A stretch of 64,000 nucleotides of DNA from Rhizobium terrae (GTDB taxonomy: Bacteria > Pseudomonadota > Alphaproteobacteria > Rhizobiales > Rhizobiaceae): NCBI RefSeq assembly GCF_003425685.1, contig NZ_QJKM01000009.1:1-64000 (forward strand), written 5' to 3'. Made by a program: the position numbers and the translations under genes. Below the pieces are notes generated by a model. The model had not been told where the DNA came from and made no database searches. It saw only the letters and a list, made by a program, of their open reading frames with translations. Below are positions 2,341-17,307 of this stretch, piece by piece. Numbering within the stretch: the first letter of the stretch is position 1; the number at the start of each line of letters is the position of its first letter.

Positions 2341-3834
2341 CTACAACGTCCAATGGGCGGCGACTACCTCTGAACGATGCACGATTGAGGCACGATCGGC
2401 TTTGGGTAGGCGCACGCATGCCGTCAAGCCCGGATTACCAGATGAAAGCTCTATATCTCCACCATGGTGTCGGACAATCGCCCGGGCGATCGACATTCCA
2501 AGGCCGATACCACCGGTTTGGCGATTGCGTGACTTTTCCATCCGGAAGAAGGGTGAGAACACTTTATCCCGCATGTCTTCTGGAATACCTGGACCTCGAT
2601 CCTTGATGAGGATGTCGAAGGATATCTCCCGTTCGACGATCGACACGCTGGCGCTTCCACCGTATCTGACTGCATTTTCTACGAGGTTGCGTATGGCGCG
2701 GCGCAAGGCCCCAGGACGACAGCGGTAATGCGTTTTCTTTCCTTCGATAAATTCGACTTTGTGGCCGAGGTCTCCGAGGTCATGGCAAAGGCTCTCGACC
2801 AGCGCGCACAGATCAATCGTGCGCGTTTCCTCAGTAGATGCCTCGCCCTTGGCAAAAGCGATGGTTGCTTCGGCCATTGTCTGAACCTCATCAATGGTGT
2901 CGAGCATCCGCTTTTGAACATCTGAATCGGACACCAATTCCGCGCGTAGCCTCAGTGAGGTCAAAGGTGTTCTAAGATCATGGCCGATCGCTGCAAGCAT
3001 TCTGACCCTGTCTTCGACGTATCGATGCAGCCGCTGCTGCATCCGATTGAACGATACGGCCGTCAAGCGAATGTCGTCGGGGCCGCTCTCGGCAATGGGT
3101 GCGATGTTCTCTCCGCGCCCGAGCGCGTCGGCAGCGGCGGCCAGCTGTCGCATTGGCCGGATAATTCGCTCTGTCGCCAGGATAACAATGACAGACAGGA
3201 TCACGGCGCTAAGTGCGAAGGAATAGAGCGATGGCGAACGCCACCAGGGCGTTCCTACAGACTTGAAGTAGGCAGTATTGAGCCAAAGTCCGCTCTTGAG
3301 CTGAACGGCCATGCCCATTCCAGAACCAATACCGTTCGGCGTCACGAGATCAGCGTATCTGGCAGCTTGATCCAACGGCCAGAGTGTGCCGCCCGCCTGA
3401 ACCCATTCAGACATCCCGGCGGTGGGGCTGATTTTGGCTTCTGCGCTTCGTGCGATGCCCGTTTGCCTTGAAGCGGAGCCGAGCCCCCATTCGGGAGGCA
3501 GGGCTACCGCATTGCGGATCGGGCGGACCAGTTGCGACGTCGCGCTACGTCGCCAGCTAACAAGGTCTGTCGGTGGATCAGTTGTCACCCAAAAACGAGA
3601 GGTTGATGTCTCGCTCGCTTGCAACACTTCCTCGCGAAGTTCGGCAGGAATAACCTCCATAAGACGGGTAATCGAACCTGTTCGGGTGAAAAACTCACTT
3701 TTGGAAGCTGCCTTCAGGGCCTTGTCCTGCTCATCCCATGAGATGAGAAACGAAAGCACCTGTGAGACAACGAGCGCCAACAGAATGAAGCCGATGAGTT
3801 GTCTGGCCAGACTTCGTTTCCACCACGAGATCAT
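2341..3834 (-). CDS. EnvZ-type sensor histidine kinase
   Basis: A 497-residue inner-membrane kinase. Membrane segments lie at about residues 12-32 and 203-223, with a periplasmic sensor domain of about 170 residues between them. A HAMP domain follows (RPMRQLAAAADALGRGE). The HisKA H-box contains the phospho-accepting His285 (AAIGHDLRTPLTSLRLRAEL). The ATPase domain has an N-box around Asn387 (RNLVENAVRYG), G1 at 412-420 (DRGPGIPED) and a GIGLGMSIA lid region, so catalysis looks intact. The start overlaps the response regulator stop by ATGA, which indicates translational coupling. The ligand is unknown. The nearby exported YYEG peptides could be targets or ligands of the pathway, but that is inference. 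Confidence 0.93.
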   Translation of the reverse strand: MISWWKRSLARQLIGFILLALVVSQVLSFLISWDEQDKALKAASKSEFFTRTGSITRLMEVIPAELREEVLQASETSTSRFWVTTDPPTDLVSWRRSATSQLVRPIRNAVALPPEWGLGSASRQTGIARSAEAKISPTAGMSEWVQAGGTLWPLDQAARYADLVTPNGIGSGMGMAVQLKSGLWLNTAYFKSVGTPWWRSPSLYSFALSAVILSVIVILATERIIRPMRQLAAAADALGRGENIAPIAESGPDDIRLTAVSFNRMQQRLHRYVEDRVRMLAAIGHDLRTPLTSLRLRAELVSDSDVQKRMLDTIDEVQTMAEATIAFAKGEASTEETRTIDLCALVESLCHDLGDLGHKVEFIEGKKTHYRCRPGALRRAIRNLVENAVRYGGSASVSIVEREISFDILIKDRGPGIPEDMRDKVFSPFFRMEKSRNRQTGGIGLGMSIARAIVRHHGGDIELSSGNPGLTACVRLPKADRASIVHRSEVVAAHWTL

Positions 3835-4553
3835 GACTTCACCACGCTAGCTGAAAAGCTGTAGCCGCCACCCCAATGGGTCTTGATGATAGACGGGTTT
3901 TTCGGGTCGGTCTCGACTTTCTTGCGCAAGCGGCTGACCTGATTGTCGATGCTGCGGTCGAAAGCATCGGCCATTCTTCCGGCAGTGAGATCCAGGAGCT
4001 GGTCTCGGCTGAGGACCATTCCGGGGTGATCGAGAAACGCCTTGAGCAACCGGAATTCGACCGTGCTCAAGGCTAGCCCAATACCATCTGTGCCGGTGAG
4101 TTCCTGTCGGGCGAAATCGAGGGTCCACTGATTGAAACGAACCGTGTTTCCCTTGATTGCATCGCTGTCTCTCGTCGACGCCCCCTGGCCGCGGCGCAAG
4201 ACCGCGCGCACCCGCGCAAGCAGTTCGCGAGGATTGAAGGGCTTGACGAGATAATCGTCCGCGCCGATCTCGAGACCGACGATGCGGTCTGTGTCCTCCG
4301 ACATCGCGGTCAGGAAAATAATCGGGGTGGATATGGATGCACGCAGGTGACGGCATATGCTGATGCCATCCTCACCAGGCATCATGATATCAAGCACGAT
4401 GAGGTCGATGGCCTCGCGCCCTAGAAGGTCACGCAGCATCTGACCGCTTTCGGCCAGACTAACCCTGTAGCCGTGTCTCGTCAGGTACTGGCCAACCAGA
4501 TCCCGGATGTCATGATGATCATCCACGACAGCAATATGCGGCGAAGTCTCCAT
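3831..4553 (-). CDS. OmpR/PhoB-type response regulator
   Basis: A 240-residue two-domain regulator. The receiver domain has the acidic pocket (VVDDHHD), the phospho-acceptor Asp55 (LIVLDIMMPGEDG) and the conserved Lys104 (YLVKPFNPRE). The C-terminal winged helix (LALSTVEFRLLKAFLDHPG to RSIDNQVSRLRKKVE) ends with GGGYSF. I place the start at 4553 because AGGA lies six bases upstream; an in-frame ATG at 4559 sits too close to it. Longer in-frame extensions run into the terminator region and are unlikely. The gene partners the downstream kinase. Confidence 0.93.
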   Translation of the reverse strand: METSPHIAVVDDHHDIRDLVGQYLTRHGYRVSLAESGQMLRDLLGREAIDLIVLDIMMPGEDGISICRHLRASISTPIIFLTAMSEDTDRIVGLEIGADDYLVKPFNPRELLARVRAVLRRGQGASTRDSDAIKGNTVRFNQWTLDFARQELTGTDGIGLALSTVEFRLLKAFLDHPGMVLSRDQLLDLTAGRMADAFDRSIDNQVSRLRKKVETDPKNPSIIKTHWGGGYSFSASVVKS

Positions 4554-4652
4554 TGCCATTCCTACGACACTCCAATTCCACTGCCCGGCAAGCCAGCGTA
4601 GCCGAAGAAATGCGATCAGGATTTCCACGACCGCAATCGAGCTTTCTCTATC

Positions 4653-4713
4653 AAAAACCGTCCCCCACCAGCCCTCTGCAGGGGGTGCGCAGAGCGACTG
4701 CTGGGGACGGTTT
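4653..4713 (-). terminator. Intrinsic terminator downstream of the YYEG peptide gene
   Basis: A long imperfect inverted repeat has perfect 11-base outer arms (AAACCGTCCCC at 4655-4665, GGGGACGGTTT at 4703-4713) and further inner pairing (CTCTGC with GCAGAG). Read on the minus strand the stem is followed by TTTTT, the layout of a Rho-independent terminator. It lies 30 bases after the 4743 stop and before the response regulator, so it should separate the small exported peptides from the two-component genes. Confidence 0.75.
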
Positions 4714-4742
4714 GCACGACGAGCGCGTCCGAGGTCAATCAT

Positions 4743-5479: not shown

Positions 5480-6175
5480 TCAGTTGAAGAACCGCTCGCC
5501 GAAGATGACGGCGAACTGTGTCTTTGCCTCGACCCATTCCCGCGGCGCGCGCTTCCATTGCTCGGCCGCATTGTTGAGAACCAAATATAACAGCTTCATC
5601 GCGTTCGGCGGGAAATCGCGGATCCGTCCACGATTGCTTTCCCGCCTTACCGTCACCAGGGAAATGCCCACGCGACCGCACAGCCCGGCGAAGCTTCGAG
5701 TTCAAGGCCTCTATGGCGTTGGGGTAGTATAAATGATGCGGCGAACACCCTCTGGGAAGGCGAAGAAGGGAACGACATGCTCCCAGTTGCGCCGCCAGCT
5801 GTGAGAGATGGCAGGGTACTCTGGCCCCAGTATCCGGTCTCGAAGGCCTCCAGCGCCTTCAGGCCCGCCTCGGCATCTCGGGCACGGTAGATGGCTCTCA
5901 ACGCCGGCACGACCGGCTTGCGATCCTTGTAGGAAACGAACTCCAGGGAGTGCCGGATCAAATGAACAATACAAGTTTGGACGACCGTTTTGGGGAAAGA
6001 CGGCGGTGATGGCTTCGGGAAAGCCCTTCAAGCCATCGACCACGGCGATCAGGATATCCTGGCAGCCACGGCTTTTCAGCTCGTTCATCACCCGAAGCCA
6101 GAACTTTGCCCCTTCAGTCTGCTCGATCCAGAGGCCGAGGATTGCGAACTCGCCGATCTGGATGCCGATGAACAA
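5480..6175 (-). pseudogene. Degenerate IS256-family (Mutator-type) transposase
   Basis: Translated pieces in three minus-strand frames line up in order as the catalytic half of an IS256 transposase. They are GLWIEQTEGAKFWLRVMNEL, ILIAVVDGLKGFPEAITAVF (one catalytic Asp), HSLEFVSYKDRKPVVPALRA, WEHVVPFFAFPEGVRRIIYT, SLNSKLRRAVRSRGHF and LLYLVLNNAAEQWKRAPREW ending at 5480. At least four frameshifts and loss of the N-terminus make it non-functional. The left terminus carries a plausible inverted repeat. The right side ends abruptly near 6175 at an IS701-like fragment, indicating nested insertion or deletion. Confidence 0.85.
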
Positions 6176-6180
6176 TGAGA

Positions 6181-6655
6181 CGAAATCGGGGCTTGGAGCC
6201 GTGGCCTCCTGATCCAACGCAATATCAGCGATGGCGATCTCGCATTCTTCACCACATAGTGCCCTGCCGGGACAGACGTCCAGACGCTCGTTTCCGTCGA
6301 AGGCCATCACTGGGCGATCGAAGACAGCTTCGAGACCGCCAAGAACGAGCTCGGACTCGATCACAACGAAACCCGGTCATGGCATGGCTGGCATCGCCAC
6401 GTCTTCCTCGTCATGCTTGCCTTCGCCATGATGGCGCTGATCCGGTACCACGCCAATGACGCGACGCCCCCAAAGAGACCGCGGATGCCGACCATCAGGA
6501 CTTGACCCGCTGGTCTCTCCAGGAAGTTCTGCGCATCGCTTTCAGACTCGCTCAGCGTCGCATAAACCCGCCTACGTCACCGCATGGTAGCGCTGGAGAC
6601 GCGCTCATCAGGCGGCCGCTCGACGAGCTCATCCCAGACTAAAATGCAACTGTAA
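6181..6655 (+). pseudogene. C-terminal remnant of an IS701-like DDE transposase
   Basis: A plus-strand frame reads through LIQRNISDGDLAFFTT, an in-frame TAG at 6257-6259, then GHHWAIEDSFETAKNELGLD and SWHGWHRHVFLVMLAFAMMA. The W-x-I-E-D-x-F-E-x-A-K-x-E-L-G-L-D segment carries the catalytic glutamate region of IS701-type transposases. A second piece (WSLQEVLRIAFRLAQRR) follows out of frame and ends near ATGCAACTGTAA at 6644-6655. The N-terminal half is absent, replaced by the IS256 wreck. It is clearly inactive. Confidence 0.75.
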
Positions 6656-6888: not shown

Positions 6889-7347
6889 ATGACTCGGCTT
6901 TCCATAAACGATGTAGTCTACGACTTGGATGTCGAGCCTGAGACGCCGCTACTTTGGGTGATCCGCGAACAGGTTGGGTTGACCGGTACCAAATACGGGT
7001 GTGGTGTTGCGCAATGCGGCGCTTGTACCGTTCATATAGACGGCGTCGCAACGCGCTCCTGTGCCATTCCAGTCTCTACGGTGACGGAGCAGCAGAAGAT
7101 CGTCACAATCGAAGGGCTTTCGCCTGATCTGGCGCACCCAGTACAAAAGGCATGGCTGGAACTCGACGTGCCGCAATGCGGTTACTGTCAATCCGGCCAG
7201 ATTATGGCCGCGACAGCCTTGTTGAATGCCAATCCCAGACCAACCGAGCAGCAGATCCGTGAAGAGATGACCAACATCTGTCGCTGCGGCACCTACAATC
7301 GGATCAAGGCAGCGATCCAGCTGGCTTCCAACACGATGGCCGGTTGA
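6889..7347 (+). CDS. iorA: [2Fe-2S] subunit of an IorAB-type molybdenum hydroxylase
   Basis: A 152-residue small subunit of the xanthine oxidase family. The N-terminal plant-ferredoxin-type cluster ligands are in YGCGVAQCGACTVHIDG. The C-terminal four-helix cluster ligands are in QCGYCQSGQ and NICRCGTYNRI. The length matches isoquinoline 1-oxidoreductase alpha subunits, which pass electrons from the molybdenum centre. A GGGGAG ribosome binding site precedes the ATG. It is followed immediately by the large subunit and then by cytochromes and Sox genes, suggesting periplasmic electron delivery to cytochrome c. The substrate cannot be read from the sequence; iorA is a family symbol, not proof of isoquinoline use. 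Confidence 0.92.
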   Translation: MTRLSINDVVYDLDVEPETPLLWVIREQVGLTGTKYGCGVAQCGACTVHIDGVATRSCAIPVSTVTEQQKIVTIEGLSPDLAHPVQKAWLELDVPQCGYCQSGQIMAATALLNANPRPTEQQIREEMTNICRCGTYNRIKAAIQLASNTMAG

Positions 7348-7358
7348 GGGAGGACGCC

Positions 7359-9539
7359 ATGACCACGCTTACTGTTCCTCGCCGTGGCTTCCTTGCCGGC
7401 GGCGCCGCGGCCGCGGCGGGCCTGACACTTGGCTTTCACCTACCCTTTGGCGGTGACGCTTCTGCACAGTCTGTCACACCTGAAGTCAACGCCTGGGTGG
7501 TTATCAAGCCCGACGACACCGTGGTCGTGCGCATCGCACGCGCCGAAATGGGCCAGGGTACGTTGACTGGTCTTGCGCAACTCGTTGCCGAAGAACTCGA
7601 GTGTGACTGGAACAAGGTGACCTGGGAGTATCCTACTCCAGGCGAGAATGTCAGACGCGGCCGAGTTTGGCAGAATTTTGGCACCGCCGGTAGTCAGGGC
7701 ATACGCCAGTCCAACGACTACGTACGCAAGGGCGGCGCGGCGGCGCGTATGATGCTGGTTCAGGCCGCGGCTAATGAATGGAAGGTGCCGGTCGGCGAAT
7801 GCACAGTCGCCAAGGGCGTCATCACCCATGCGGTCACGGGCCGCTCGACCAGTTATGGCAAGGTTGCAGCGGCGGCTTCCTTATTGACGCCGCCCCCGAC
7901 CGACAGCATCACGTTGAAAGATCCTAAGACCTGGACGATCGCCGGGCAGCCATTAAAGCGTCTGGACACGCCGGAGAAATTGAACGGCCGCCAAATCTAC
8001 AGCATCGATGTGAAGTTGCCGGGCATGCTAAATGCTGCGTTGAAAATCTGTCCGGTGTTCGGCGGCAAGATCAAGAACTTCGATGTCACCCAAATCGAGA
8101 ACATGCCTGGCTTCAAAAAAGCCGTAAGGGTGGGCGATACCGGCGTGGCTGTGATCGCCGACACCTGGTGGCGTGCCAAGACGGCGCTCGACGCGCTGCC
8201 GATCGAATGGGATGAGGGACCGAACAGCAAGGTGCAGCAAGCGGACATTCTTGCGGCACAAACCGAGGGCCTGACGGCCAGCGAGGCTATACTCGGCAGC
8301 AAAAATGGCGACGCGCACGCGGCCCTCGCAAGTGCGCGGCGTACCGTCGAAGCTGTCTATGCTGTACCGCACCAACACCACGTTACTATGGAGCCGATGA
8401 ACGCGACAGCGCTCTGGACGCCCCAAAAATGTGAGGTTTGGACGGCCACTCAAAACGCTGAGGCAGCTCTCGCAACCGCTACGGAGGTTTCTGGCCTGCC
8501 TATCGACAAGAACGAGGTCTATCGGCTGCATTTAGGCGGCGGATTTGGCCGACGTTCATCAAGCCAGGATTTCGTGCGTTACGCGATATTGATCGCAAAA
8601 GAGATGCCCGGCACACCGGTCAAGACCATATGGTCGCGCGAAGAAGACATGACCCACGGCTGGTATCATCCCGCCACGCAATGCCGCTTGATCGCGGGAT
8701 TCGACGACCAGGACAATCTCAACGCGTTGCACATGAGGATCTCCGGTCAATCCATCCTGGCAACCATCAGTCCAGCCCGTCTCCAAAATGGCCGCGATGC
8801 AGCTACATTCCAGGGTCTCAACCCGGAAGGACCGGAAAGCCAGTTGGGGTACACTGTTCCGAACCTGCTGATCGAGCATGCGATGCGAAACTCGCACGTA
8901 CCCGCAGGTTTCTGGCGCGGCGTTAACAATAACCAGAATGCCATCTATCTGGAATGCTTCCTGGATGAACTCGCACATTCGGCGAAACAGGATCCGTTGG
9001 AATTTCGCCGCAAACTGATGGCGAACCATCCTAAACATCGCGCGGTGCTCGATGCCGTTGCAGAAAAGGTCGGTTGGGGTACGCCTCCACCTGCCGGGGT
9101 CTATCGCGGCCTCGCACAGCAGATGGGCTTTGGCAGTTACGTCGCGGCCTGCGCCGAAGTCTCGGTGAGTGACGCCGGAATTTTGAAGATTCATCGCATT
9201 GTCGCGGCAACGGATTGCGGTCATGCCGTCAACCCGCAGCAGATCGCTGCGCAAGTGGAAGGCTCATTCGTCTACGGCCTCACCGCAGCGCTCTATGGAG
9301 AGATCACCATCGCCAATGGCCGCGTTGAGCAGGAGAATTTCGACACCTATCAGATGCTGCGTATGGATGAGATGTTCGACGTCGAAACAATAATCATGCC
9401 ATCAGGCGGCTTTTGGGGCGGTGTGGGTGAGCCGACGATTTTTGTCGCGGCGCCAGCGGTGCTGAACGCCGTCTTTGCTGCAACCGGTATAAGGGTGCGG
9501 CAGGTTCCGCTATCGAAAACCAGCTTAAAGAAGGCGTAA
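7359..9539 (+). CDS. iorB: Molybdopterin-binding large subunit, IorB type, TAT-exported
   Basis: A 726-residue catalytic subunit of the xanthine dehydrogenase/aldehyde oxidase family. I start it at the ATG at 7359, which has GGGAGGA four bases upstream. A twin-arginine signal follows (PRRGFLAGGAAAAAGLTLGF), so the complex is probably exported folded. Motifs include RIARAEMGQGTLTGLAQLVA, the molybdopterin loop HLGGGFGRRSSSQDF, and the C-terminal GVGEPTIFVAAPAV with the catalytic glutamate. Isoquinoline oxidoreductases and cytochrome-linked aldehyde dehydrogenases share this layout. No XdhC-like or CoxD-like maturation gene is nearby. The gene is followed by a small cytochrome c that could accept its electrons. 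Confidence 0.92.
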   Translation: MTTLTVPRRGFLAGGAAAAAGLTLGFHLPFGGDASAQSVTPEVNAWVVIKPDDTVVVRIARAEMGQGTLTGLAQLVAEELECDWNKVTWEYPTPGENVRRGRVWQNFGTAGSQGIRQSNDYVRKGGAAARMMLVQAAANEWKVPVGECTVAKGVITHAVTGRSTSYGKVAAAASLLTPPPTDSITLKDPKTWTIAGQPLKRLDTPEKLNGRQIYSIDVKLPGMLNAALKICPVFGGKIKNFDVTQIENMPGFKKAVRVGDTGVAVIADTWWRAKTALDALPIEWDEGPNSKVQQADILAAQTEGLTASEAILGSKNGDAHAALASARRTVEAVYAVPHQHHVTMEPMNATALWTPQKCEVWTATQNAEAALATATEVSGLPIDKNEVYRLHLGGGFGRRSSSQDFVRYAILIAKEMPGTPVKTIWSREEDMTHGWYHPATQCRLIAGFDDQDNLNALHMRISGQSILATISPARLQNGRDAATFQGLNPEGPESQLGYTVPNLLIEHAMRNSHVPAGFWRGVNNNQNAIYLECFLDELAHSAKQDPLEFRRKLMANHPKHRAVLDAVAEKVGWGTPPPAGVYRGLAQQMGFGSYVAACAEVSVSDAGILKIHRIVAATDCGHAVNPQQIAAQVEGSFVYGLTAALYGEITIANGRVEQENFDTYQMLRMDEMFDVETIIMPSGGFWGGVGEPTIFVAAPAVLNAVFAATGIRVRQVPLSKTSLKKA

Positions 9540-9572
9540 GCGCTCCAACCCGTCGCAAAGTGAGTGGCATCG

Positions 9573-9893
9573 ATGAAGTGGGTGCGGCGCATGAGGGAAG
9601 TTTGGATCTCAACAGCTCTTCTGGTGGCGTCATCTCCTGCTATGGGGCAGCCGGCGGTTAGCCCGCCGGCGGCGCCTCCGGGCGCATCATCCTGCTCGGG
9701 TTGTCATGCGCGGTCAGCCAACGGCCATTCCATCCCTTCGTTACAGGGTCTTTCTGCGCCCGATATCCTTGGTGCTCTGCAAGCTTTCCGCAATGGCGAA
9801 CGCGAAGCAACGGTCATGGGGCGTATTGCCAAGGGATTTACCGATGGCGAGATGCGGGCAATTGCGGAATGGCTGGCAAGGGGAGACGAATGA
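9573..9893 (+). CDS. Small periplasmic monoheme c-type cytochrome
   Basis: A 106-residue class I cytochrome with a signal peptide (EVWISTALLVASSPAMG) and one heme site, CSGCHARSANGHS. A later IMG or VMGRIAKGF methionine is a candidate axial ligand. The start is taken as ATG 9573; a GTG at 9564 and an ATG at 9591 are alternatives. Its stop overlaps the flavoprotein start (ATGA), so the two are coupled like the FccA/FccB subunits of flavocytochrome c sulfide dehydrogenase. It begins only 33 bases after iorB, so it may equally serve the molybdenum enzyme. Confidence 0.88.
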   Translation: MKWVRRMREVWISTALLVASSPAMGQPAVSPPAAPPGASSCSGCHARSANGHSIPSLQGLSAPDILGALQAFRNGEREATVMGRIAKGFTDGEMRAIAEWLARGDE

Positions 9894-11158
9894 CACGAGC
9901 TTCCTTCAGTCGTCGTGCGGTGCTTCGGACGGGCGTGGTCCTCAGCGCGGCCGCGGCGCTGGCGCGGCCCGCGATTGCGCAGTCGGCTGGCCACGTCGTG
10001 GTAATCGGCGGCGGCTTCGCGGGGGCAACCTGCGCACGCGAACTTAACCGCGGTGGCCTCAACGTGACACTGGTGGAGCCAGCGGCAACCTATACGGCGT
10101 GCCCGTTCAGCAACGGAGTCCTTGCCGGCTTGCGACCGCTGTCGCGGCAGCAGTTCACCTATGACGCACTCAAGAAGGAGGGTTTGGCGGTTGTCGCGCA
10201 GCGTGCCACAAGGATTGACGGGCAGGAGAGGCGCGTCTCGCTCTCGGATGGTACAACGCTAGGGTATGACCGCCTCGTGCTAGCGCCCGGAATCGACCTG
10301 CGGTACGACGCACTGCCAGGCTATACGGAAGACGTCGCACAGATCATGCCGCACGCTTGGAAAGCAGGTGAGCAGACTTCGCTGCTGCGCGGCCAGCTCG
10401 AAGCGATGCCGGATGGCGGAACGGTGATAATCTCCGTGCCGGCAAATCCCTACCGGTGTCCGCCAGGCCCATACGAGCGAGCGAGCCTGGTTGCCTATTA
10501 TCTCAAAATCCAAAAGCCGCGCGCAAAGCTTATCGTCCTTGATGCCAAAGACAGCTTCTCAAAGCAGGGACTGTTTCAGGGGGCGTGGAAGGCGCTTTAT
10601 CCAAACCTCGAGTGGGTTTCGATGTCATCGGGGGGGAAGGTCATCGAGGTTGATGTGAGGCAGAGGATGCTGGTCACCGAGTTCGGCCGCCACAAGGCAG
10701 ATGTTGCCAATGTCATTCCGCCGCAGCATGCGGGTGAGGTCGCCGTTCTTGCCGGCACTGCCGACCGCACCGGTTGGTGTCCGATCGATCCGGTCACCTT
10801 CGAATCGCGACAGCAGCCGGGCATTCATATCATTGGTGATGCCTGCATCGCTGGTAGCATGCCAAAATCGGCGTTCTCAGCAAATGCGCAAGCGAAAGTC
10901 TGTGCTGCAGCGATCATAAATCTGCTCAGGGGCCAGGCACCGCAGACGCCGAAATTGATCAATACCTGCTACAGTCTGGTTGCACCCGATTATGGCATAA
11001 CGGTCGCGGGTGTCTATCAGCCCGTCAACGGCGTATTGACTGACGTGGAAGGGGCAGGGGGTGTCAGCCCCGCAGATGGCTCAGCCTCCCTTCGCTCCTT
11101 GGAAGCCTCATACGCCGATGCCTGGTTCAGAACTATTACGGATGAAGTCTTTGGCTAG
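9890..11158 (+). CDS. soxF: FccB/SoxF-type flavoprotein of sulfide dehydrogenase
   Basis: A 422-residue FAD enzyme with a TAT signal (SRRAVLRTGVVLSAAAALARP). The dinucleotide fold is HVVVIGGGFAGATCARELNR, and the second FAD contact is PGIHIIGDACIAGSMPKSAF. Cysteines sit where the redox-active pair of flavocytochrome c is expected (NPYRCPPGPYERA and GWCPIDP). The family oxidises sulfide to sulfur and donates electrons to its cytochrome subunit in the periplasm. The start at 9890 overlaps the cytochrome stop. Longer in-frame extensions read through that cytochrome gene and were rejected. The soxF symbol reflects the sox neighbourhood. Confidence 0.88.
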   Translation: MTRASFSRRAVLRTGVVLSAAAALARPAIAQSAGHVVVIGGGFAGATCARELNRGGLNVTLVEPAATYTACPFSNGVLAGLRPLSRQQFTYDALKKEGLAVVAQRATRIDGQERRVSLSDGTTLGYDRLVLAPGIDLRYDALPGYTEDVAQIMPHAWKAGEQTSLLRGQLEAMPDGGTVIISVPANPYRCPPGPYERASLVAYYLKIQKPRAKLIVLDAKDSFSKQGLFQGAWKALYPNLEWVSMSSGGKVIEVDVRQRMLVTEFGRHKADVANVIPPQHAGEVAVLAGTADRTGWCPIDPVTFESRQQPGIHIIGDACIAGSMPKSAFSANAQAKVCAAAIINLLRGQAPQTPKLINTCYSLVAPDYGITVAGVYQPVNGVLTDVEGAGGVSPADGSASLRSLEASYADAWFRTITDEVFG

Positions 11159-11594
11159 ATCGCTGTTCCTGATCGCCGCCCTCCTCGTCGCCTCGCCCGC
11201 GATAGCGCAGCTGCGCGCTTTCATTGTCGTCGGCGACGCCATTCCTCAATCGTTGACAGGAAAAGCCGGCGATGCCGCGCGCGGCCGCACCGTTGTTACC
11301 GACCGCCAGAAGGGGCTTTGCCTGCTGTGCCATACAGGGCCGTTCCCGGAACAGCGGTTTCAGGGCGATCTCGCGCCCGATCTTCGCGGCGCCGGCAGCC
11401 GGTGGGATGAGGGGCAGTTGCGATTGCGTCTGGTGGACAGCAGCAAAGTCAATCCGTCGACTATCATGCCGGCCTATTATCGTGTCGACGGTCTGAACCG
11501 CGTCGCAGGCTCTTGGCAGAATAGGCCTGTGCTGTCCGCTGACGAAGTTGAGGATGTTGTAGCCTTCCTGATGACGTTGAGGGATCCGCCATGA
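11142..11594 (+). CDS. soxX: Sulfur-oxidation cytochrome SoxX
   Basis: A 150-residue monoheme cytochrome with a signal peptide (LARSLFLIAALLVASPAIAQ). The heme site CLLCHTGPFPEQRFQGDLAP and the distal methionine region NPSTIMPAYYRVDGLNRV are typical of SoxX, the partner of SoxA in thiosulfate:SoxY conjugation. The start at 11142 overlaps the flavoprotein by 17 bases; a TTG at 11151 is possible. Its stop overlaps the soxY start by four bases, so translation is coupled. Confidence 0.92.
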   Translation: MKSLARSLFLIAALLVASPAIAQLRAFIVVGDAIPQSLTGKAGDAARGRTVVTDRQKGLCLLCHTGPFPEQRFQGDLAPDLRGAGSRWDEGQLRLRLVDSSKVNPSTIMPAYYRVDGLNRVAGSWQNRPVLSADEVEDVVAFLMTLRDPP

Positions 11595-12049
11595 CGGGGA
11601 GATCATTTCAGCCAAAACTCTCCCGCCGCGCTGTGCTGACGGGCTGCCTTGCACTGATCGCCGCGCGGCCGGCGCGTGCCACGACGGAGGCGATGCGCGA
11701 TGCCATCCGCCATTTTACCGGCAGTGCCGAGATCAAGGCGGGCCGCGTGAAGATGGACATTCCGCCACTCGTAGAGAACGGCAATTCCGTGCCGCTTGCG
11801 ATCACCGTCGAAAGCCCAATGGAAAAAGACGACTTCGTCCAGGCGATTGCGGTGTTTAACGAGAAGAACCCCCAGCCGAACATCGGCATATTCCATCTGA
11901 GTTCTCGTTCCGGCCGTGCGTTCGTATCAACCCGCATCCGGCTCGGAGATTCCCAAAACATCACAGCGATAGCGCAAATGAGCGATGGCAGTTTTTGGTC
12001 CGGCTCGGTTGAGTTGATCGTAACCCTTCCGGCGTGTGCGGAGAATTGA
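11591..12049 (+). CDS. soxY: Sulfur-carrier subunit SoxY with atypical tail
   Basis: A 152-residue carrier with a twin-arginine signal (PKLSRRAVLTGCLALIAARP) consistent with co-export with SoxZ. The body matches SoxY (GRVKMDIPPLVENGNSVPLA, IRLGDSQNITAIAQMSDG). Canonical SoxY ends in a flexible GGCGG arm whose cysteine carries the sulfur. Here the protein ends in ACAEN: the cysteine is retained third from the last residues but the flanking glycines are gone. This could alter mobility or client choice. The gene overlaps soxX by four bases and is two bases from soxZ. Confidence 0.9.
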   Translation: MTGRSFQPKLSRRAVLTGCLALIAARPARATTEAMRDAIRHFTGSAEIKAGRVKMDIPPLVENGNSVPLAITVESPMEKDDFVQAIAVFNEKNPQPNIGIFHLSSRSGRAFVSTRIRLGDSQNITAIAQMSDGSFWSGSVELIVTLPACAEN

Positions 12050-12050
12050 C

Positions 12051-12368
12051 ATGGCTCGTATCTTGATCAACCTGCCGAAGGCGAAGCGGGGTGAGATCGT
12101 CGAGATCAGGACACTGATTCAGCATCCCATGGAAACGGGCTATCGCCCAAAAGGGGATGGCACGTCATTCCCGCGCGACATCATCAGGAATTTCGTCTGC
12201 GAGCTAGATCAGATTGAGATTTTTCGTGCTGATCTTTTTCCGGCAATTGCAGCAAATCCATTCATCGCGTTTACGGTCAAGGCAGAAGAAGGTGGCACCA
12301 TGACCTTCTCCTGGATCGATGACCTCGGCATGTCACAAACTGAAACCGTCGATTTCATCGTCGAATGA
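12051..12368 (+). CDS. soxZ: Sulfur-carrier complex subunit SoxZ
   Basis: A 105-residue SoxZ, without a signal of its own, expected to travel with SoxY through the TAT system. The conserved start ARILINLPKAKRGEIVEIRT, the motif IQHPMETGYR and the C-terminal FSWIDDLGMSQTET are diagnostic. The ATG at 12051 lies one base after the soxY stop. The stop overlaps soxA by ATGA. SoxZ scaffolds SoxY in the periplasm during sulfur oxidation. Confidence 0.95.
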   Translation: MARILINLPKAKRGEIVEIRTLIQHPMETGYRPKGDGTSFPRDIIRNFVCELDQIEIFRADLFPAIAANPFIAFTVKAEEGGTMTFSWIDDLGMSQTETVDFIVE

Positions 12369-13147
12369 TGTCCACCGTCTTCTTCAACTCCATGCTGCTA
12401 TGGGCGATGGCGGTTTCTACCCTCATCGCAGCGGCCCAGACAACAGACCTCCGACGGTCCGGCTTTGAAGACATGAGCAGGGAGTCGCAGGCGATGCAAC
12501 GCGACGATACATCTAATCCTGGCATGTTTGCTGTCTTGGAGGGACAAGAATTATGGAGGGCGAAAGTCGGCAGCTCAAGGGCGTCTTGTGCGGATTGCCA
12601 CCAAAATGCCGAGGTCAGCATGAGAGGCGTGGCCGCGCGCTATCCGTCCTTCAGCACAGCTCGAAATGCGCCGATCGATCTGCAGGGACAGATCAATCTT
12701 TGCCGGGAGACCCGTCAGAAGGCGCCGCCGCTTCCGCTTGAAAGTTCGGAACTGCTCGCGCTCGCGGCCTATGTTTCCATACAGTCGCGAGGTATACCCA
12801 TTACGCAGCCGGACGATGTGCGACTGGAGCCGTCGCGAAGACAAGGCGAGGCGCTCTACTACCTGCGACAGGGACAGCTCAATTTCTCCTGCGCTAACTG
12901 TCATGACGATCATGCAGGGCAGCGCCTAGCGGGCTCGCTGATTCCGCAGGGGCATCCGACTGGTTATCCGCTCTATAGATTGGAGTGGCAGCGTATCGGA
13001 TCGTTGCAACGACGGCTGCGCGGATGCCTTATCGGGATCCGCGCAGAGCCCTACGCCTATGGCGCCGAAGAATATATCGCGCTGGAGTTGTTCCTGATGT
13101 CCCGGGCGCGAGGGATGGCCATCGAGACACCCGCGATTAGACCATAG
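12365..13147 (+). CDS. soxA: Diheme SoxA, L-cysteine S-thiosulfotransferase subunit
   Basis: A 260-residue diheme cytochrome with an N-terminal signal peptide. Two heme sites are visible, CADCHQNAEVSMRG in the first domain and CANCHDDHAGQRLAG in the second. The active-site cysteine lies in RRLRGCLIGIRAEPYAYGAE, matching the SoxA pattern R-x-C...RAEP...G-x-E-Y. With SoxX it would join a sulfur substrate to the SoxY cysteine. It is the last gene of the co-directional run that begins at iorA. No soxB, soxC or soxD follows. Confidence 0.95.
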   Translation: MMSTVFFNSMLLWAMAVSTLIAAAQTTDLRRSGFEDMSRESQAMQRDDTSNPGMFAVLEGQELWRAKVGSSRASCADCHQNAEVSMRGVAARYPSFSTARNAPIDLQGQINLCRETRQKAPPLPLESSELLALAAYVSIQSRGIPITQPDDVRLEPSRRQGEALYYLRQGQLNFSCANCHDDHAGQRLAGSLIPQGHPTGYPLYRLEWQRIGSLQRRLRGCLIGIRAEPYAYGAEEYIALELFLMSRARGMAIETPAIRP

Positions 13148-13216: not shown

Positions 13217-13738
13217 CTACTGTCTTTTGCCCGACGCCTCGAATTGCTTGAGATAGGCTATCAGGTCTGTGACCTGGTCCGGGTTCTTGATCCCCGCATA
13301 GATCATTTTGGTGCCAGGAATTTTGATCCTTGGGTTGGTTACAAATTCACGAAAGCTTTCGTCGGTCCAGACGATGCCGGCGTTTTTATTTGCAGCCGAA
13401 TAGGCGTAGCCTTCCACCGTACCACTGGTGCGTCCGAAAAGCCCGTTGAGATGGGGGCCCGTCACGTTGCGGGCGGTCTCCCCGACTTGATGACAGCCTC
13501 GACACTGGACGAATACTCGCTCACCGGCCTCGGCATTCTGCGCTCGTGTGGTCTCCGATTGTAAAACGAGCGCGCAGAGCGAAACGGCCGCCAACCGCCA
13601 AATCCTTTCGCCTATCGCGAAAACTGCTCTACGAAACGAAGTGTTCGGCGACAGTCCATTAAATGGATGTGCGGATTGAGCCTCGAAACGCTGGATAACC
13701 GCTGGAACTGAGTTCTCATTCTTTTTTTGCGCTGCCAT
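13217..13738 (-). CDS. Cytochrome c (class I, cytochrome c2-like)
   Basis: A 173-residue cytochrome, convergent with soxA. The start at ATG 13738 has GAGAG upstream. An N-terminal hydrophobic stretch (WRLAAVSLCALVLQSE) after a long polar leader may be a signal peptide or membrane anchor. The heme site is CRGCHQVGETARNVTGPHLN, followed by GLFGRTSGTVEGYAYSAANK. The distal methionine is in PGTKMIYAGIKNPDQV. This pattern matches mobile cytochrome c2/c550. It is a plausible electron carrier between the Sox and molybdenum enzymes and a terminal oxidase. The long leader of about 45 residues before the hydrophobic stretch is unusual. Confidence 0.87.
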   Translation of the reverse strand: MAAQKKNENSVPAVIQRFEAQSAHPFNGLSPNTSFRRAVFAIGERIWRLAAVSLCALVLQSETTRAQNAEAGERVFVQCRGCHQVGETARNVTGPHLNGLFGRTSGTVEGYAYSAANKNAGIVWTDESFREFVTNPRIKIPGTKMIYAGIKNPDQVTDLIAYLKQFEASGKRQ

Positions 13739-14029
13739 GTCTGCTCTCTCATTATAAGTCGGGCCATTTGGCGGACGTGTCGCGATGAGTTTCCCGTTCC
13801 AGCCAATTTGGGGATGGTACAATGGGATTGTCGCAGAATTGTCCCATCACATGGGGAACTTGTCACAAAATGTAATAAGGTCATGGTTCCCCCGCAGACT
13901 GCAACGGAGCCACCGACTAGAGCGTAGGGCAGATTTTGTGAATCCTCCGATTCCATCGGCTTCGAATTTATGATTTCACATCTTGAGCTCCCGCTTCCGT
14001 TGCTACTCGCAGCGAGAGGGCGAAGCGCC

Positions 14030-14764
14030 TCAGACGCTCGGCCTGTCTTCCTGGCCTGAAGTGAGTTTGTAAAAGCGTCTGATCGACAGATGCGAAGAAC
14101 GAATGTCAAGATTGATCGCCCGCCGCGCAGCAGCGCGGTCTCGCCGCGCGACTGCGTCGATGACGTCGCTGTGGATGCGAACGCCATTGTCGAAAATCCG
14201 CCCGAAAAGCGCCTCGTCCCTGCGGGCCGACGCGACGATTGGTCCAGTGCGGAGCCAAAGGGTAGAGATGATGTCGAGCAGCTGCGGATAGCCGCCCGCA
14301 CGGTAGAGCTCGAAATGAAAGGCCTGGTTGCCGCCAAGCGCCGCATCGAGATCCCGGACCTCCAGCGCCTCTGCGATAGCCTGGTTATGGCGCCTTAGAG
14401 CATCGATGAGAACGGAGTTCTTCGGTGCGCTGGCCGCACGTTCGGCCGCGTAGCCTTCGAGCTGCATGCGGACCCGAATGTAATTCTCATGATCCGATGC
14501 AACGTATGGGGCAATACGAAGCATCCGCGGTCCCGATTGTTCAATCGCGCGTTCCGCGATCAAGCGCGCCACCGCCTCACGTACCGGCATCGCGCTGGTG
14601 CCAAGCACCTCCGCCAGGCCGCGGATCGATATTTGTTCGCCGGGAAGGAACTCACCTTTCAGAAGGCCAAGTCTGAGGCTTTGGTAGACGCGCTCCTGAA
14701 CAGTTGTCACATCGACCGGCGTAAGCGCGCGCTGGCTCTTGTACTTGGCTTCAACAGTATTCAC
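14030..14764 (-). CDS. GntR-family regulator, FadR/FCD type
   Basis: A 244-residue regulator with an N-terminal winged helix (YQSLRLGLLKGEFLPGEQIS, then LAEVLGTSAMPVREAVARL) and a C-terminal all-helical FCD domain with metal-binding candidates (FHFELYRAGG, RIHSDVIDAVARRD). Such proteins usually repress catabolic operons and release on binding an organic acid. It is divergent from the Liv-type transporter operon. The 294-base gap between them holds a 32-bp near-palindrome that is the probable operator. Confidence 0.93.
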   Translation of the reverse strand: MNTVEAKYKSQRALTPVDVTTVQERVYQSLRLGLLKGEFLPGEQISIRGLAEVLGTSAMPVREAVARLIAERAIEQSGPRMLRIAPYVASDHENYIRVRMQLEGYAAERAASAPKNSVLIDALRRHNQAIAEALEVRDLDAALGGNQAFHFELYRAGGYPQLLDIISTLWLRTGPIVASARRDEALFGRIFDNGVRIHSDVIDAVARRDRAAARRAINLDIRSSHLSIRRFYKLTSGQEDRPSV

Positions 14765-14908
14765 GTGCTCGGGGCCTCGTTGGGCTGCGTCAAAGGGATG
14801 GCTAATGTCCGCCCGGAATCAAAAAGATGATCTGGTGTTGGGGTCACACCTCCAAGCGCTTTTATGTCCTATTCAGCCCCTAGGCAACCAGCGGCCTGAA
14901 GCTGAGGT

Positions 14909-14940
14909 GATATTGGATGTGTGATCACATATCTAATATC
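14909..14940. promoter_or_regulatory. 32-bp near-perfect palindrome, probable GntR operator
   Basis: Sixteen-base arms centred between 14924 and 14925 match at 14 of 16 positions. The core is TGTGATCACA and the outer ends are GATATT and AATATC. It lies between the divergent GntR gene and the substrate-binding protein gene at 15059, the usual place for an autoregulated FCD-family operator. The assignment to this regulator is an inference from position. Confidence 0.7.
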
Positions 14941-15058
14941 TTTACAGCCAGCTCGTGTTATGTTTAGATCCCCATCGTGCCCAGGAGGGCTTTCCGGAAG
15001 AGCAGCTCGACCGGTGGCAGTGGCACGCACACAGACATCATCTGGGAGGAGACCGAAT

Positions 15059-16291
15059 ATGAGACGTATTGTCATCATCGCGGCCATGTCCGCGACGGCC
15101 TTGAGCACGACCGCGCTTCACGCTGAGCCCCTGAAGATCGGGATCATCGAAAGCCTGTCGGGTGCACAGACGTCGACGGGCCGCCTTTACGCGAACGCCG
15201 TCAAATACGGTGTCGAGCGTATCAACGAGGCCGGCGGGTTCAATGGCGAGCCAGTTGTCGTCACCGAATACGACAATGCCGGTGGTGCTCCGGATGCCGC
15301 CGACAAGTTCCGGAAGGCGGTGGCCGACGGCGTCGACATCATCTTCCAGGGCGCATCCTCGGCGATCGCCGGCCAGCTCACCGAGGATGTTCGCAAACAC
15401 AACATCCGCAATCCTGGCAAAGAGGTGATTTTCATCAACCTTGGCGGCGACGCGATGGAGCTCACAGGCCAAAAGTGCCAATTCTATCATTTCCGCTACA
15501 CGGCAACCGCACCGATGCGGGTGAATGCGATGGTCAGCGCGATGAAAGAAGCGGGCGATCTGGGCACAAAGGTCTACTCGATCAACCAGAACTATTCCTG
15601 GGGACAGGACATGCAGGCCGCCGTCGCTGCAGGCGCGCAAGCTGGCGGCTATAAGGTCGTAGACGAAGTGCTGCACGACGTGAACAAGATCCAGGACTTC
15701 GCGCCCTTTGTCGCGCGGATCAAGTCGGCTGCGCCCGATACCGTTTTCACCGGCAATTGGTCGAACGACCTGCTCCTGCTGATGAAGGCGGTGGGTGATG
15801 CGGGCCTCGATGTGACTTTTGCTACCGCCTTCCTCGATCAGCCCGGCAACATCGCCAATGCCGGCAAAACAGCGCTAGGCCACTACATCGCCAATAACTA
15901 CGACAATGCCGCCACCGACGGCAAATTCGCGGAGACCTATAAGAAGGCGACGGGTCACTATCCGATCTTCGTCGAGGGGCATTCCGCTTTTGCCCTCGGC
16001 GCGCTGCAACAGGCGCTGAGTAAGGTCAATTTTGGCGGCGGCGACATTAATGTAACCAAAATCGCGCTGGCGCTTGAGAATACGACCTACGAAACGCCTC
16101 TTGGACCGATTTCAGTCCGCAAGGAAGATCACCAGACGATCCGGCCGGTGGTGGTTTCGAAAGTCGTCAAGAATCCGAAATATCCGGCCGACGGAACCGA
16201 CATGGGCTTCGAGACCGTCAAGATCATTGCCGGCGACAAGGCAATCTACCCTGTGCAGGATAGCTGCCGGATGGAGCGCCCCAAGGAGTGA
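15059..16291 (+). CDS. Branched-chain-amino-acid-type ABC substrate-binding protein
   Basis: A 410-residue periplasmic binding protein with the signal peptide MRRIVIIAAMSATALSTTAL, cleaved near HAEP. The fold is of the LivK/Peripla_BP_6 class (LKIGIIESLSGAQTSTGRLY, GGFNGEPVVVTEYDN, IFQGASSAIAGQL). GGGAGGAG precedes the ATG at 15059. It heads the operon of permeases, ATPases and catabolic enzymes. The ligand is not readable; the downstream esterase, dehydrogenases and BKACE suggest an organic acid or ester rather than leucine. A stem-loop follows the gene. Confidence 0.92.
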   Translation: MRRIVIIAAMSATALSTTALHAEPLKIGIIESLSGAQTSTGRLYANAVKYGVERINEAGGFNGEPVVVTEYDNAGGAPDAADKFRKAVADGVDIIFQGASSAIAGQLTEDVRKHNIRNPGKEVIFINLGGDAMELTGQKCQFYHFRYTATAPMRVNAMVSAMKEAGDLGTKVYSINQNYSWGQDMQAAVAAGAQAGGYKVVDEVLHDVNKIQDFAPFVARIKSAAPDTVFTGNWSNDLLLLMKAVGDAGLDVTFATAFLDQPGNIANAGKTALGHYIANNYDNAATDGKFAETYKKATGHYPIFVEGHSAFALGALQQALSKVNFGGGDINVTKIALALENTTYETPLGPISVRKEDHQTIRPVVVSKVVKNPKYPADGTDMGFETVKIIAGDKAIYPVQDSCRMERPKE

Positions 16292-16309
16292 GCTTGGCGT
16301 GCCTGGGCT

Positions 16310-16334
16310 CCGGCCGGCGTTTGTCGCCGGTCGG
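16310..16334 (+). promoter_or_regulatory. Intercistronic stem-loop after the binding-protein gene
   Basis: CCGGCCGGCG (16310-16319) pairs with CGCCGGTCGG (16325-16334) across a five-base loop, with one G-U pair. There is no T-run, so full termination is unlikely. Such stem-loops often stabilise or partly attenuate transcripts so that the binding protein is made in excess over the permease. Confidence 0.55.
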
Positions 16335-16365
16335 ACCGTCTTGCTGATATTATCCGGAAGTCCCC

Positions 16366-17307
16366 ATGGAATTTGCGATCATCTCCACGCTGAATGGCGT
16401 GACCTACGGCCTGCTGCTGTTTATGGTCTCCGCTGGCCTGACGCTCATCTTCGGCATGATGGGCGTGCTGAACTTCGCTCATGCCTCATTCTACATGCTG
16501 GGCGCCTATATCGCCTATGCGGTGTCGTCCATTTTCGGCTTCTGGGTCGGGATCGCGGTCGCACCCATAATCGTCGGCCTGATCGGTATGGCGGTTGAGC
16601 GGTTCCTTTTGCCACGCGTGCATGCCCACGGTCATGCCCACGAGCTTCTTCTGACCTTCGGTCTTGCGCTGATCATCGAGGAACTGATCAAACTTTTCTT
16701 CGGCGACTTTCCGGTGAACTACCAGATGCCAGGCGGAATGCGATTTTCCGCCTTTTCGATCTTTGGCGCCGACTATCCCTTTTACCGGATATTCATCGGT
16801 GGCGTGGCGGCTGTGATGTTCACCGCGCTATGGGTACTCCTGACGCGGACCCGCACTGGGATCGTCGTGCGTGCGGCCGAACGGCTGCCCGCCATGGCCG
16901 AGGCGCTTGGACACAATATCCCGATGGTGTTCATGTTCGTGTTCGGCACGGGCGCGGCGCTTGCGGGACTGGCAGGCGCGGTTGCGGGAGCCTTTTATCC
17001 AACCAACCCGAACATGGGGATCGAGCTCGGCGTGATCGTGTTCGTGGTCGTCGTGGTCGGCGGGCTCGGATCGCTGAAGGGATCGTTGGTGGCCTCGCTT
17101 CTGATCGGGCTCTTCTCGTCGTTTGCGGTAGGCCTCGACTGGTCGCTGGCGAGCCTGATGGGCTTGGTCGGCCTTGGCGACTGGGCGCGATCGCTTGGCG
17201 GGCTGATGACACTGAAATTGTCCTCGATCAGCGCCACAATCCCATTCGCGCTGATGCTGATCGTGCTGCTGGTACGCCCGGCAGGTCTCATGGGCGAGCG
17301 TAACTAA
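16366..17307 (+). CDS. livH: LivH-type ABC permease
   Basis: A 313-residue inner-membrane protein with about eight hydrophobic segments. It begins FAIISTLNGVTYGLLLFMVS and has the LivH signature LIFGMMGVLNFAHASFYMLG. The EAA-like loop lies around RAAERLPAMAEALGHNIPMV, and the C-terminus is MLIVLLVRPAGLMGERN. It pairs with LivM to form the channel. The next gene starts two bases after its stop. Confidence 0.93.
   Translation: MEFAIISTLNGVTYGLLLFMVSAGLTLIFGMMGVLNFAHASFYMLGAYIAYAVSSIFGFWVGIAVAPIIVGLIGMAVERFLLPRVHAHGHAHELLLTFGLALIIEELIKLFFGDFPVNYQMPGGMRFSAFSIFGADYPFYRIFIGGVAAVMFTALWVLLTRTRTGIVVRAAERLPAMAEALGHNIPMVFMFVFGTGAALAGLAGAVAGAFYPTNPNMGIELGVIVFVVVVVGGLGSLKGSLVASLLIGLFSSFAVGLDWSLASLMGLVGLGDWARSLGGLMTLKLSSISATIPFALMLIVLLVRPAGLMGERN

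Follow-up and report, generated by a model that had tools for sequence, protein, structure and literature searches.

An IorAB-type molybdenum hydroxylase linked to a variant SoxXYZA system in Rhizobium terrae and other proteobacteria

The window analyzed here is a 64,000-nucleotide stretch of Rhizobium terrae DNA (contig NZ_QJKM01000009.1 of assembly GCF_003425685.1, positions 1 to 64,000), which carries iorA-iorB-cytc-fccB-soxX-soxY-soxZ-soxA, all on the + strand, at 6889-13147. These genes encode an IorAB-type molybdenum hydroxylase, a small cytochrome c, the flavoprotein of flavocytochrome c sulfide dehydrogenase (FCSD), and SoxXYZA homologs with a variant SoxY. The hydroxylase and the Sox genes are a conserved unit whose linkage exceeds chance, and SoxB is not required by this module. 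Our reading, to which we give a probability of roughly 40%, is that it is a second, self-contained Sox-type system using neither SoxB nor SoxCD, in which IorAB would act on a sulfur-yielding molecule and the Sox and Fcc proteins on the sulfur. The gene composition as such is already known from Starkeya novella (2013).

Conservation of the linkage across genomes

In an order set of 297 genomes, a SoxY over the TIGR04487 cut-off was found in 17, the source genome included, and IorB was linked to it in 17/17. With two slightly weaker matches (G220 and G167) these gave 19 order loci, which were chosen by SoxY and not by iorB; reading was confined to SoxY matches scoring about 150 bits or higher (L007-L036). 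iorB lies beside soxXYZA in all 19 and iorA is present in 18, the remaining locus beginning at a contig end. fccB was found in 16, following iorB and preceding soxX in 15 of them and following soxA in the other, and the small cytochrome was found by similarity in 9. The nearest relatives found for the window's locus are on two Neorhizobium galegae plasmids, with IorB 92-94% identical and the same gene order.

For a named set, an alignment of 14 module IorBs served as the query, and the best 80 of at least 587 confirmed loci were considered. All four sox genes lie downstream of iorB in 62 of these best 80, while 13 loci stop at a contig end (three of them showing the first sox genes), four have no sox gene despite 8 kb of room (L115, L128, L134, and L149), and in L146 soxX is the sole sox gene visible. 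The genera represented include Skermanella, Microvirga, Methylobacterium, Bosea, Azospirillum, Bradyrhizobium, Mesorhizobium, Massilia, Duganella, Pseudoduganella, Roseateles, and others. The linkage that the earlier note had proposed to look for is therefore conserved, as iorB-(cytc-fccB)-soxX-soxY-soxZ-soxA, in many alpha- and beta-proteobacterial genera. Among the 62 complete named loci, fccB precedes soxX in 20 and follows soxA in 9, and it was not found on the module strand of the fetched stretch in 33 (L142 has an opposite-strand copy). Because of these 33 loci, the core of the module is iorAB plus soxXYZA, with fccB optional, and the suggestion of the earlier note that FccB handles released sulfide does not hold in general.

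Two loci depart from the usual arrangement. L146 (1-9917, a Hyphomicrobiales metagenome-assembled genome, MAG) has three iorB genes in a row before cytc-fccB-soxX, with two iorA visible; its contig begins inside the first iorB, and the tandem copies may point to several substrates. In L162 (10139-16748), about 5 kb with opposite-strand open reading frames (ORFs) lies between soxX and soxYZA.

Occurrence without SoxB

The source assembly (78 contigs, 99.96% complete) was searched with profiles for SoxY, SoxB, and SoxC, and it contains one SoxY-family match in total. No SoxB or SoxC over cut-off was found in it, the best matches scoring 122.9 against 550 for the SoxB model and 50.2 against 420 for the SoxC model; SoxD was not searched for. 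SoxB and SoxC, which had been described as missing from the window, are thus missing over cut-off from the whole assembly. Whether soxB or soxC lies elsewhere in the same genome has a different answer for the source genome, where neither was found over cut-off, and for its relatives, many of which do have SoxB. Among the 19 order genomes with the module, SoxB is over cut-off in 14 and not in 5. Among 46 named module genomes (of the 62), it is over cut-off in 22, one more has SoxB split over two contigs, and the other 23 gave no SoxB match with an E-value of 1e-100 or below; several of these genomes are MAGs, with completeness not told. Isolates of Skermanella, Microvirga, Duganella, Methylobacterium, and Mesorhizobium are among the 23.

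The SoxY arm and SoxA residues

Motifs were counted in 81 module loci (62 named, 18 order, and the window). The C-terminal cysteine of SoxY stands within [A/P/S]AC-x-[E/D] in 81/81, whereas the comparison SoxYs end in GGCGG in 13/13, a motif found in none of the 81 module loci. The window SoxY, which ends in PACAEN in place of GGCGG, is a member over cut-off of TIGR04487, the SoxY-related AACIE arm protein family, and falls below the true-SoxY model (97.8 vs 125 bits).

SoxA combines kept and changed residues. The heme-ligand cysteine, Arg(-4), and Arg(+5) are present in 81/81 module and 11/11 comparison sequences, while Arg(-5) is present in 81/81 module vs 3/11 comparison sequences, and Gly(+3) in 80/81 vs 0/11; a twelfth comparison sequence, gapped at the cysteine column, was excluded from the counts. 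Arg119 of TsdA, four residues before Cys123, is the counterpart of Arg(-4), and is called invariant in TsdA and SoxA (PMC4423706). The extra charge of the module SoxA may meet the new acidic residue of the SoxY arm. As in canonical Sox, both SoxXA subunits score over cut-off (TIGR04484 and TIGR04485), with the catalytic cysteine kept.

On a SoxA tree of 81 module and 11 comparison rows, the two groups are not parted by one branch (2 changes), and we do not claim the module SoxA as a single clade; when the tree is rooted on the divergent L034 and L035, the nine remaining comparison rows group as a single clade within it. Distance correlations were 0.49-0.59 between IorB and the Sox genes and 0.62-0.79 among the Sox genes; they had no control and are not used as evidence.

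IorB with and without Sox genes

In a class set of 385 genomes, for which the table of SoxY and IorB co-occurrence was made by hand, this SoxY was over cut-off in 21, and an IorB match was found in 21/21 (partial in G417 and G442). IorB lies within 2.2 kb of SoxY in 17 of them. In G366, G388, and G442 the two are on different contigs, where a contig end may intervene; G386, with IorB on another contig and no sox gene within 1.5 kb of it, shows that the IorB and Sox halves can lie apart. IorB matches are strongest (>1150 bits) in 29 class genomes, of which 25 have a TIGR04487 match (E up to 1e-42); sox genes adjoin iorB in two of the remaining four (G423 and G362), and no sox gene was found within 1.5 kb of iorB in the other two (G585 and G662). 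Twelve class genomes have a SoxY match under cut-off (E up to 1e-42), six with IorB and six without. The SoxYs of the latter six (G307, G426, G463, G527, G652, and G660) stop at model position 144, like the GGCGG loci, and are probably ordinary SoxY.

IorB also occurs without Sox genes beside it. Among plasmid records, close IorB was found in 36 and this SoxY (E up to 1e-30) in 3, the search covering the plasmids and not the chromosomes of those strains. Seven no-Sox plasmid loci that were read (L200, L201, and L204-L208, on Sinorhizobium and Rhizobium megaplasmids) consist of response regulator, kinase, cytochrome c, iorA, and iorB, with no sox gene in the stretch, and IorB of the same clade without adjoining Sox genes occurs in Reyranella and Inquilinus as well. 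On the IorB tree, these seven loci and the four no-Sox named loci fall inside the Sox-linked IorB clade, which is separated from nine paralogs with a Shimodaira-Hasegawa-like approximate likelihood ratio test (SH-aLRT) value of 100 (a quick method, with a long-branch warning). This tree leaves out L086 (long branch), L075 and L076 (extra copies of G274), and the fragment L052; another IorB tree includes the first three, and L052 is in neither. Identity to the window IorB is 62-70% for the linked IorB of the 19 order genomes and at most 43% for their other full-length copies, except in G274, which has two further module-type copies, at C26:38153-40309 (59%) and C61:1-1581 (58%).

Our reading of this distribution is that several lineages lost the Sox half, Sox having been looked for beside iorB only in most such genomes. 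The dependence looks one-sided, SoxY over cut-off being accompanied by IorB in 21/21 class genomes and IorB occurring also without adjoining Sox genes.

Relation to known systems

A second cluster of S. novella, soxX2Y2Z2A2F2 with a molybdenum enzyme of the xanthine oxidase (XO) family (Snov_1975-1982), was reported in 2013 (PMC3797975). Going by the published description, this cluster matches the module in gene content, in missing SoxB and SoxCD, and in having the molybdenum enzyme in the operon; the difference is that the host strain also has a full sox cluster, whereas the source genome shows no SoxB. In Bradyrhizobium diazoefficiens, which has two soxY genes, thiosulfate oxidation depends on soxY1 and does not need soxY2 (PMC5748708); soxY2 may be of the same type as the module SoxY.

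The module shares with canonical Sox (soxXYZABCD, Paracoccus type) the SoxXA and SoxYZ homologs in X-Y-Z-A order and the SoxA catalytic cysteine, but it has no SoxB or SoxC, its arm is AAC-x-E/D instead of GGCGG, and its molybdenum enzyme belongs to another family. TIGR04557, the quinoprotein dehydrogenase-associated SoxYZ-like carrier, is likewise tied by name to a periplasmic dehydrogenase, but is one fused protein, and the window SoxY and SoxZ score 57.4 and 34.1 against its cut-off of 140. IorB shares sequence family and catalytic motif with the molybdenum aldehyde dehydrogenase 8gy3 and the IorAB/PaoABC-type hydroxylases, beside which we know of no Sox genes. In the open-licence PubMed Central (PMC) literature, no paper was found on the TIGR04487 family, the AACIE string occurring only in papers that look unrelated by title, and none on the breadth of the module, its SoxB-free occurrence, or its arm, subscription papers being mostly outside this scope.

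What the module may do

Because the module often occurs without SoxB, the sulfate-releasing enzyme, it probably does a different sulfur job from canonical Sox. In the reading that we prefer, exported IorAB would oxidize, in the periplasm, a small organic molecule carrying or yielding reduced sulfur (e.g., a thio-substituted aldehyde or heterocycle), and its electrons would go to c-type cytochromes. SoxXA would join the sulfur product (a thiol, sulfide, or thiosulfate-like anion) to the SoxY cysteine, and FccAB, where present, would take up free sulfide. Since SoxB can be dispensed with, the product would probably be carrier-bound sulfane or a mixed disulfide passed on elsewhere, whereas sulfate would not be formed on the carrier. 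Oxidation of an aldehyde or heterocycle by IorAB appears likely, because its closest solved chain is 8gy3_C, the "large subunit of aldehyde dehydrogenase" (8.1e-80). The occurrence of IorB without adjoining Sox genes suggests a step of IorAB that precedes the carrier and is not confined to it, and therefore that its substrate is probably a free small molecule. Of the earlier proposal that the hydroxylase acts on a sulfur-containing or SoxY-bound substrate, the association with Sox has gained from the conservation of the unit, while an obligatory SoxY-bound substrate has been weakened by the same-clade IorBs without adjoining Sox.

Several observations weigh against this reading. SoxB does lie elsewhere in the genome in 14/19 order and 23/46 named module genomes, same-strand fccB is often lacking, and the kept SoxA arginines would suit ordinary thiosulfate. 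For most no-Sox IorB loci, Sox was sought only nearby and not elsewhere in the genome. Expression of the second cluster of S. novella was very low during growth with glucose, methanol, or thiosulfate; the authors of that study suggest no functional significance there, allowing for other growth conditions (PMC3797975). No recurrent catabolic gene was found among the 25 commonest of 113 families in a scan of immediate-neighbor proteins (119 nearest picked and 116 scanned, the long upstream ORFs of L120, L124, and L125 being dropped), these families consisting of FccB (7), OmpW (7), sensor kinase parts, cytochromes, and a few others. The sole organosulfur source tested, SBP56-type methanethiol oxidase, was found in only 2/46 named module genomes, and methanethiol as the source, with IorAB acting on the aldehyde and Sox/Fcc on the sulfide, was rejected as a general explanation. 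In the 297 order genomes, this oxidase is present in 10/19 with the module vs 24/278 without it (Fisher p 4.7e-6, uncorrected for relatedness and genome size). Near Bradyrhizobium-like modules it was seen in L127 (4997-6406, about 1 kb before iorA) and L038 (14692-16122, 4.4 kb after soxA), as an edge fragment in L037, and about 9 kb from the module in G216.

It is conceivable, though we think it rather unlikely, that IorAB is the functional counterpart of SoxCD, oxidizing a group covalently bound to the SoxY arm after loading by SoxXA, with the arm reshaped accordingly. The arm is conserved in a new form in 81/81 loci and not merely relaxed, SoxA shows specific changes, the altered arm goes with a different molybdenum enzyme, and IorB is in the same genome as an over-cut-off SoxY in 21/21 class genomes. 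What speaks against a carrier-bound substrate is the same-clade IorB without adjoining Sox in the seven plasmid loci, Reyranella, and Inquilinus, and the 3 plasmid records with SoxY vs 36 with IorB; to our knowledge, moreover, XO-family enzymes act on small substrates only. Linkage of the two halves for regulatory convenience is another reading, one that we regard as unlikely: the periplasmic IorAB would be an aldehyde oxidoreductase of the usual kind, and soxXYZA would be an additional thiosulfate or sulfide system using the SoxB of a main cluster. The genomes with SoxB elsewhere, the ability of IorB to stand without adjoining Sox, and the intact look of the SoxXA active site agree with this, but the remaining genomes tested show no SoxB, the SoxY arm differs in every module locus, and the linkage is kept in distant lineages.

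Quite improbable, in our opinion, is a role of SoxYZ in cofactor upkeep, in which it would receive sulfane sulfur from SoxXA and FccAB and, as a carrier in the periplasm, use it to install or mend the Mo=S ligand of exported IorAB. Such a role would account for SoxB and SoxCD being dispensable, for this SoxY never being seen in genomes without IorB, and for IorAB without adjoining Sox, and, if true, it would mean that Sox proteins of an energy pathway had been recruited to maintain a cofactor. XdhC-type proteins, which are the usual sulfuration factors, are encoded in 19/19 genomes, and we know of no precedent for Sox proteins sulfurating a molybdenum enzyme. An XdhC-type gene lies beside the module in 1/19 (G285), and none lies near the IorB paralogs (distances compared by eye), positions that favor neither this role nor the other readings.

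Gene content of the window and neighboring genes

The eight co-directional genes were all found where the earlier note had placed them and in the order that it gave (Table 1). Its coupled starts from the cytochrome onward are borne out, cytc/fccB, soxX/soxY, and soxZ/soxA each overlapping by 4 bases and soxY/soxZ being 1 base apart. The twin-arginine export of the hydroxylase also agrees with the predicted N-terminus of IorB, where the signal VPRRGFLAGG is found; iorB probably starts at ATG 7359, the codon that opens this signal, and not at TTG 7344. An RR motif is near the IorB start in 18/19 order loci, and the G[VI]GE motif is present in 81/81 module loci (GVGE in the window). IorA has both 2Fe-2S domains, and its eight cysteines are kept in 18/18 order loci having iorA. 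No Pfam match to an XO-type flavin adenine dinucleotide (FAD) subunit was found among the eight module proteins, and the enzyme thus has the composition of the IorAB family, a 2Fe-2S subunit and a molybdenum subunit with GVGE, with the FAD subunit not in the unit.

The small cytochrome may be FccA/SoxE-like or the electron acceptor of IorAB. FccB aligns over most of its length with solved FCSD structures (5n1t, 1.1e-137; 1fcd, 2.1e-119); its Cys71, Cys190, and Cys360, which we take to be FAD-linking and redox cysteines, align with cysteines of 1fcd in columns kept in 16/16. SoxX has a single heme motif in 81/81 module loci, and SoxA matches the solved structure 1h31 (1.5e-45).

Table 1. Coordinates of the module and of neighboring genes in the window.
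Feature	Position	Strand	Product	Evidence
iorA	6889..7347	+	2Fe-2S subunit, IorAB-type molybdenum hydroxylase	Pfam Fer2_2 99.7 bits, Fer2 29.6
iorB	7359..9539	+	molybdopterin subunit	MoCoBD_1 and MoCoBD_2; predicted twin-arginine signal
cytc	9564..9893	+	small monoheme cytochrome c (one CxxCH)	Cytochrom_C 23.3 bits vs cut-off 21.3
fccB/soxF	9890..11158	+	flavoprotein of FCSD	FCSD_central 155 bits
soxX	11142..11594	+	monoheme cytochrome of SoxXA; start codon uncertain	TIGR04485 77.3 vs 61
soxY variant	11591..12049	+	AACIE-arm family	TIGR04487 197.3 vs cut-off 172
soxZ	12051..12368	+		TIGR04490 84.8 vs 76
soxA	12365..13147	+	two heme motifs, catalytic Cys221, Arg217 (C-4), Arg226 (C+5)	TIGR04484 221.2 vs 110
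Sensor histidine kinase	2341..3834	-	likely partner of OmpR-type regulator	HATPase_c, HAMP, HisKA
OmpR-type response regulator	3831..4742	-		Response_reg and Trans_reg_C
Cytochrome c-550-like protein	13217..13822	-	relatives near module in some other loci	Cytochrom_C 39.5 bits

The two-component pair at 2341-4742 is a candidate regulator of the module. Of 86 loci examined, 9 (the window among them) have a similar kinase and regulator nearby, those of L114 being only 41% and 52% alike; such a pair is also near 9/10 plasmid loci, even where Sox is missing. The c-550-like protein downstream is a possible electron acceptor. Between the two-component genes and iorA lies a remnant of a Mutator-family transposase (5711-6364), and the first 16 kb of the window has a G+C content of 0.57-0.60, lower than most of the remainder; both are consistent with a mobile origin. 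A GntR/FCD regulator, followed by a periplasmic binding protein and a branched-chain-amino-acid-type permease, is encoded at 14030-17307.

Significance

Surveys of genomes and metagenomes commonly read the presence of Sox genes as an indication of thiosulfate oxidation. The module described here is a widespread form of Sox, present for example in Microvirga, Skermanella, Methylobacterium, and Duganella. It has a carrier arm of its own and a molybdenum enzyme of another kind, many of its host genomes show no SoxB, and the arm motif AAC-x-E/D is a simple marker that separates it from true Sox. The module would be a new pathway for oxidizing (organic) sulfur, or else the Sox carrier put to a new use.

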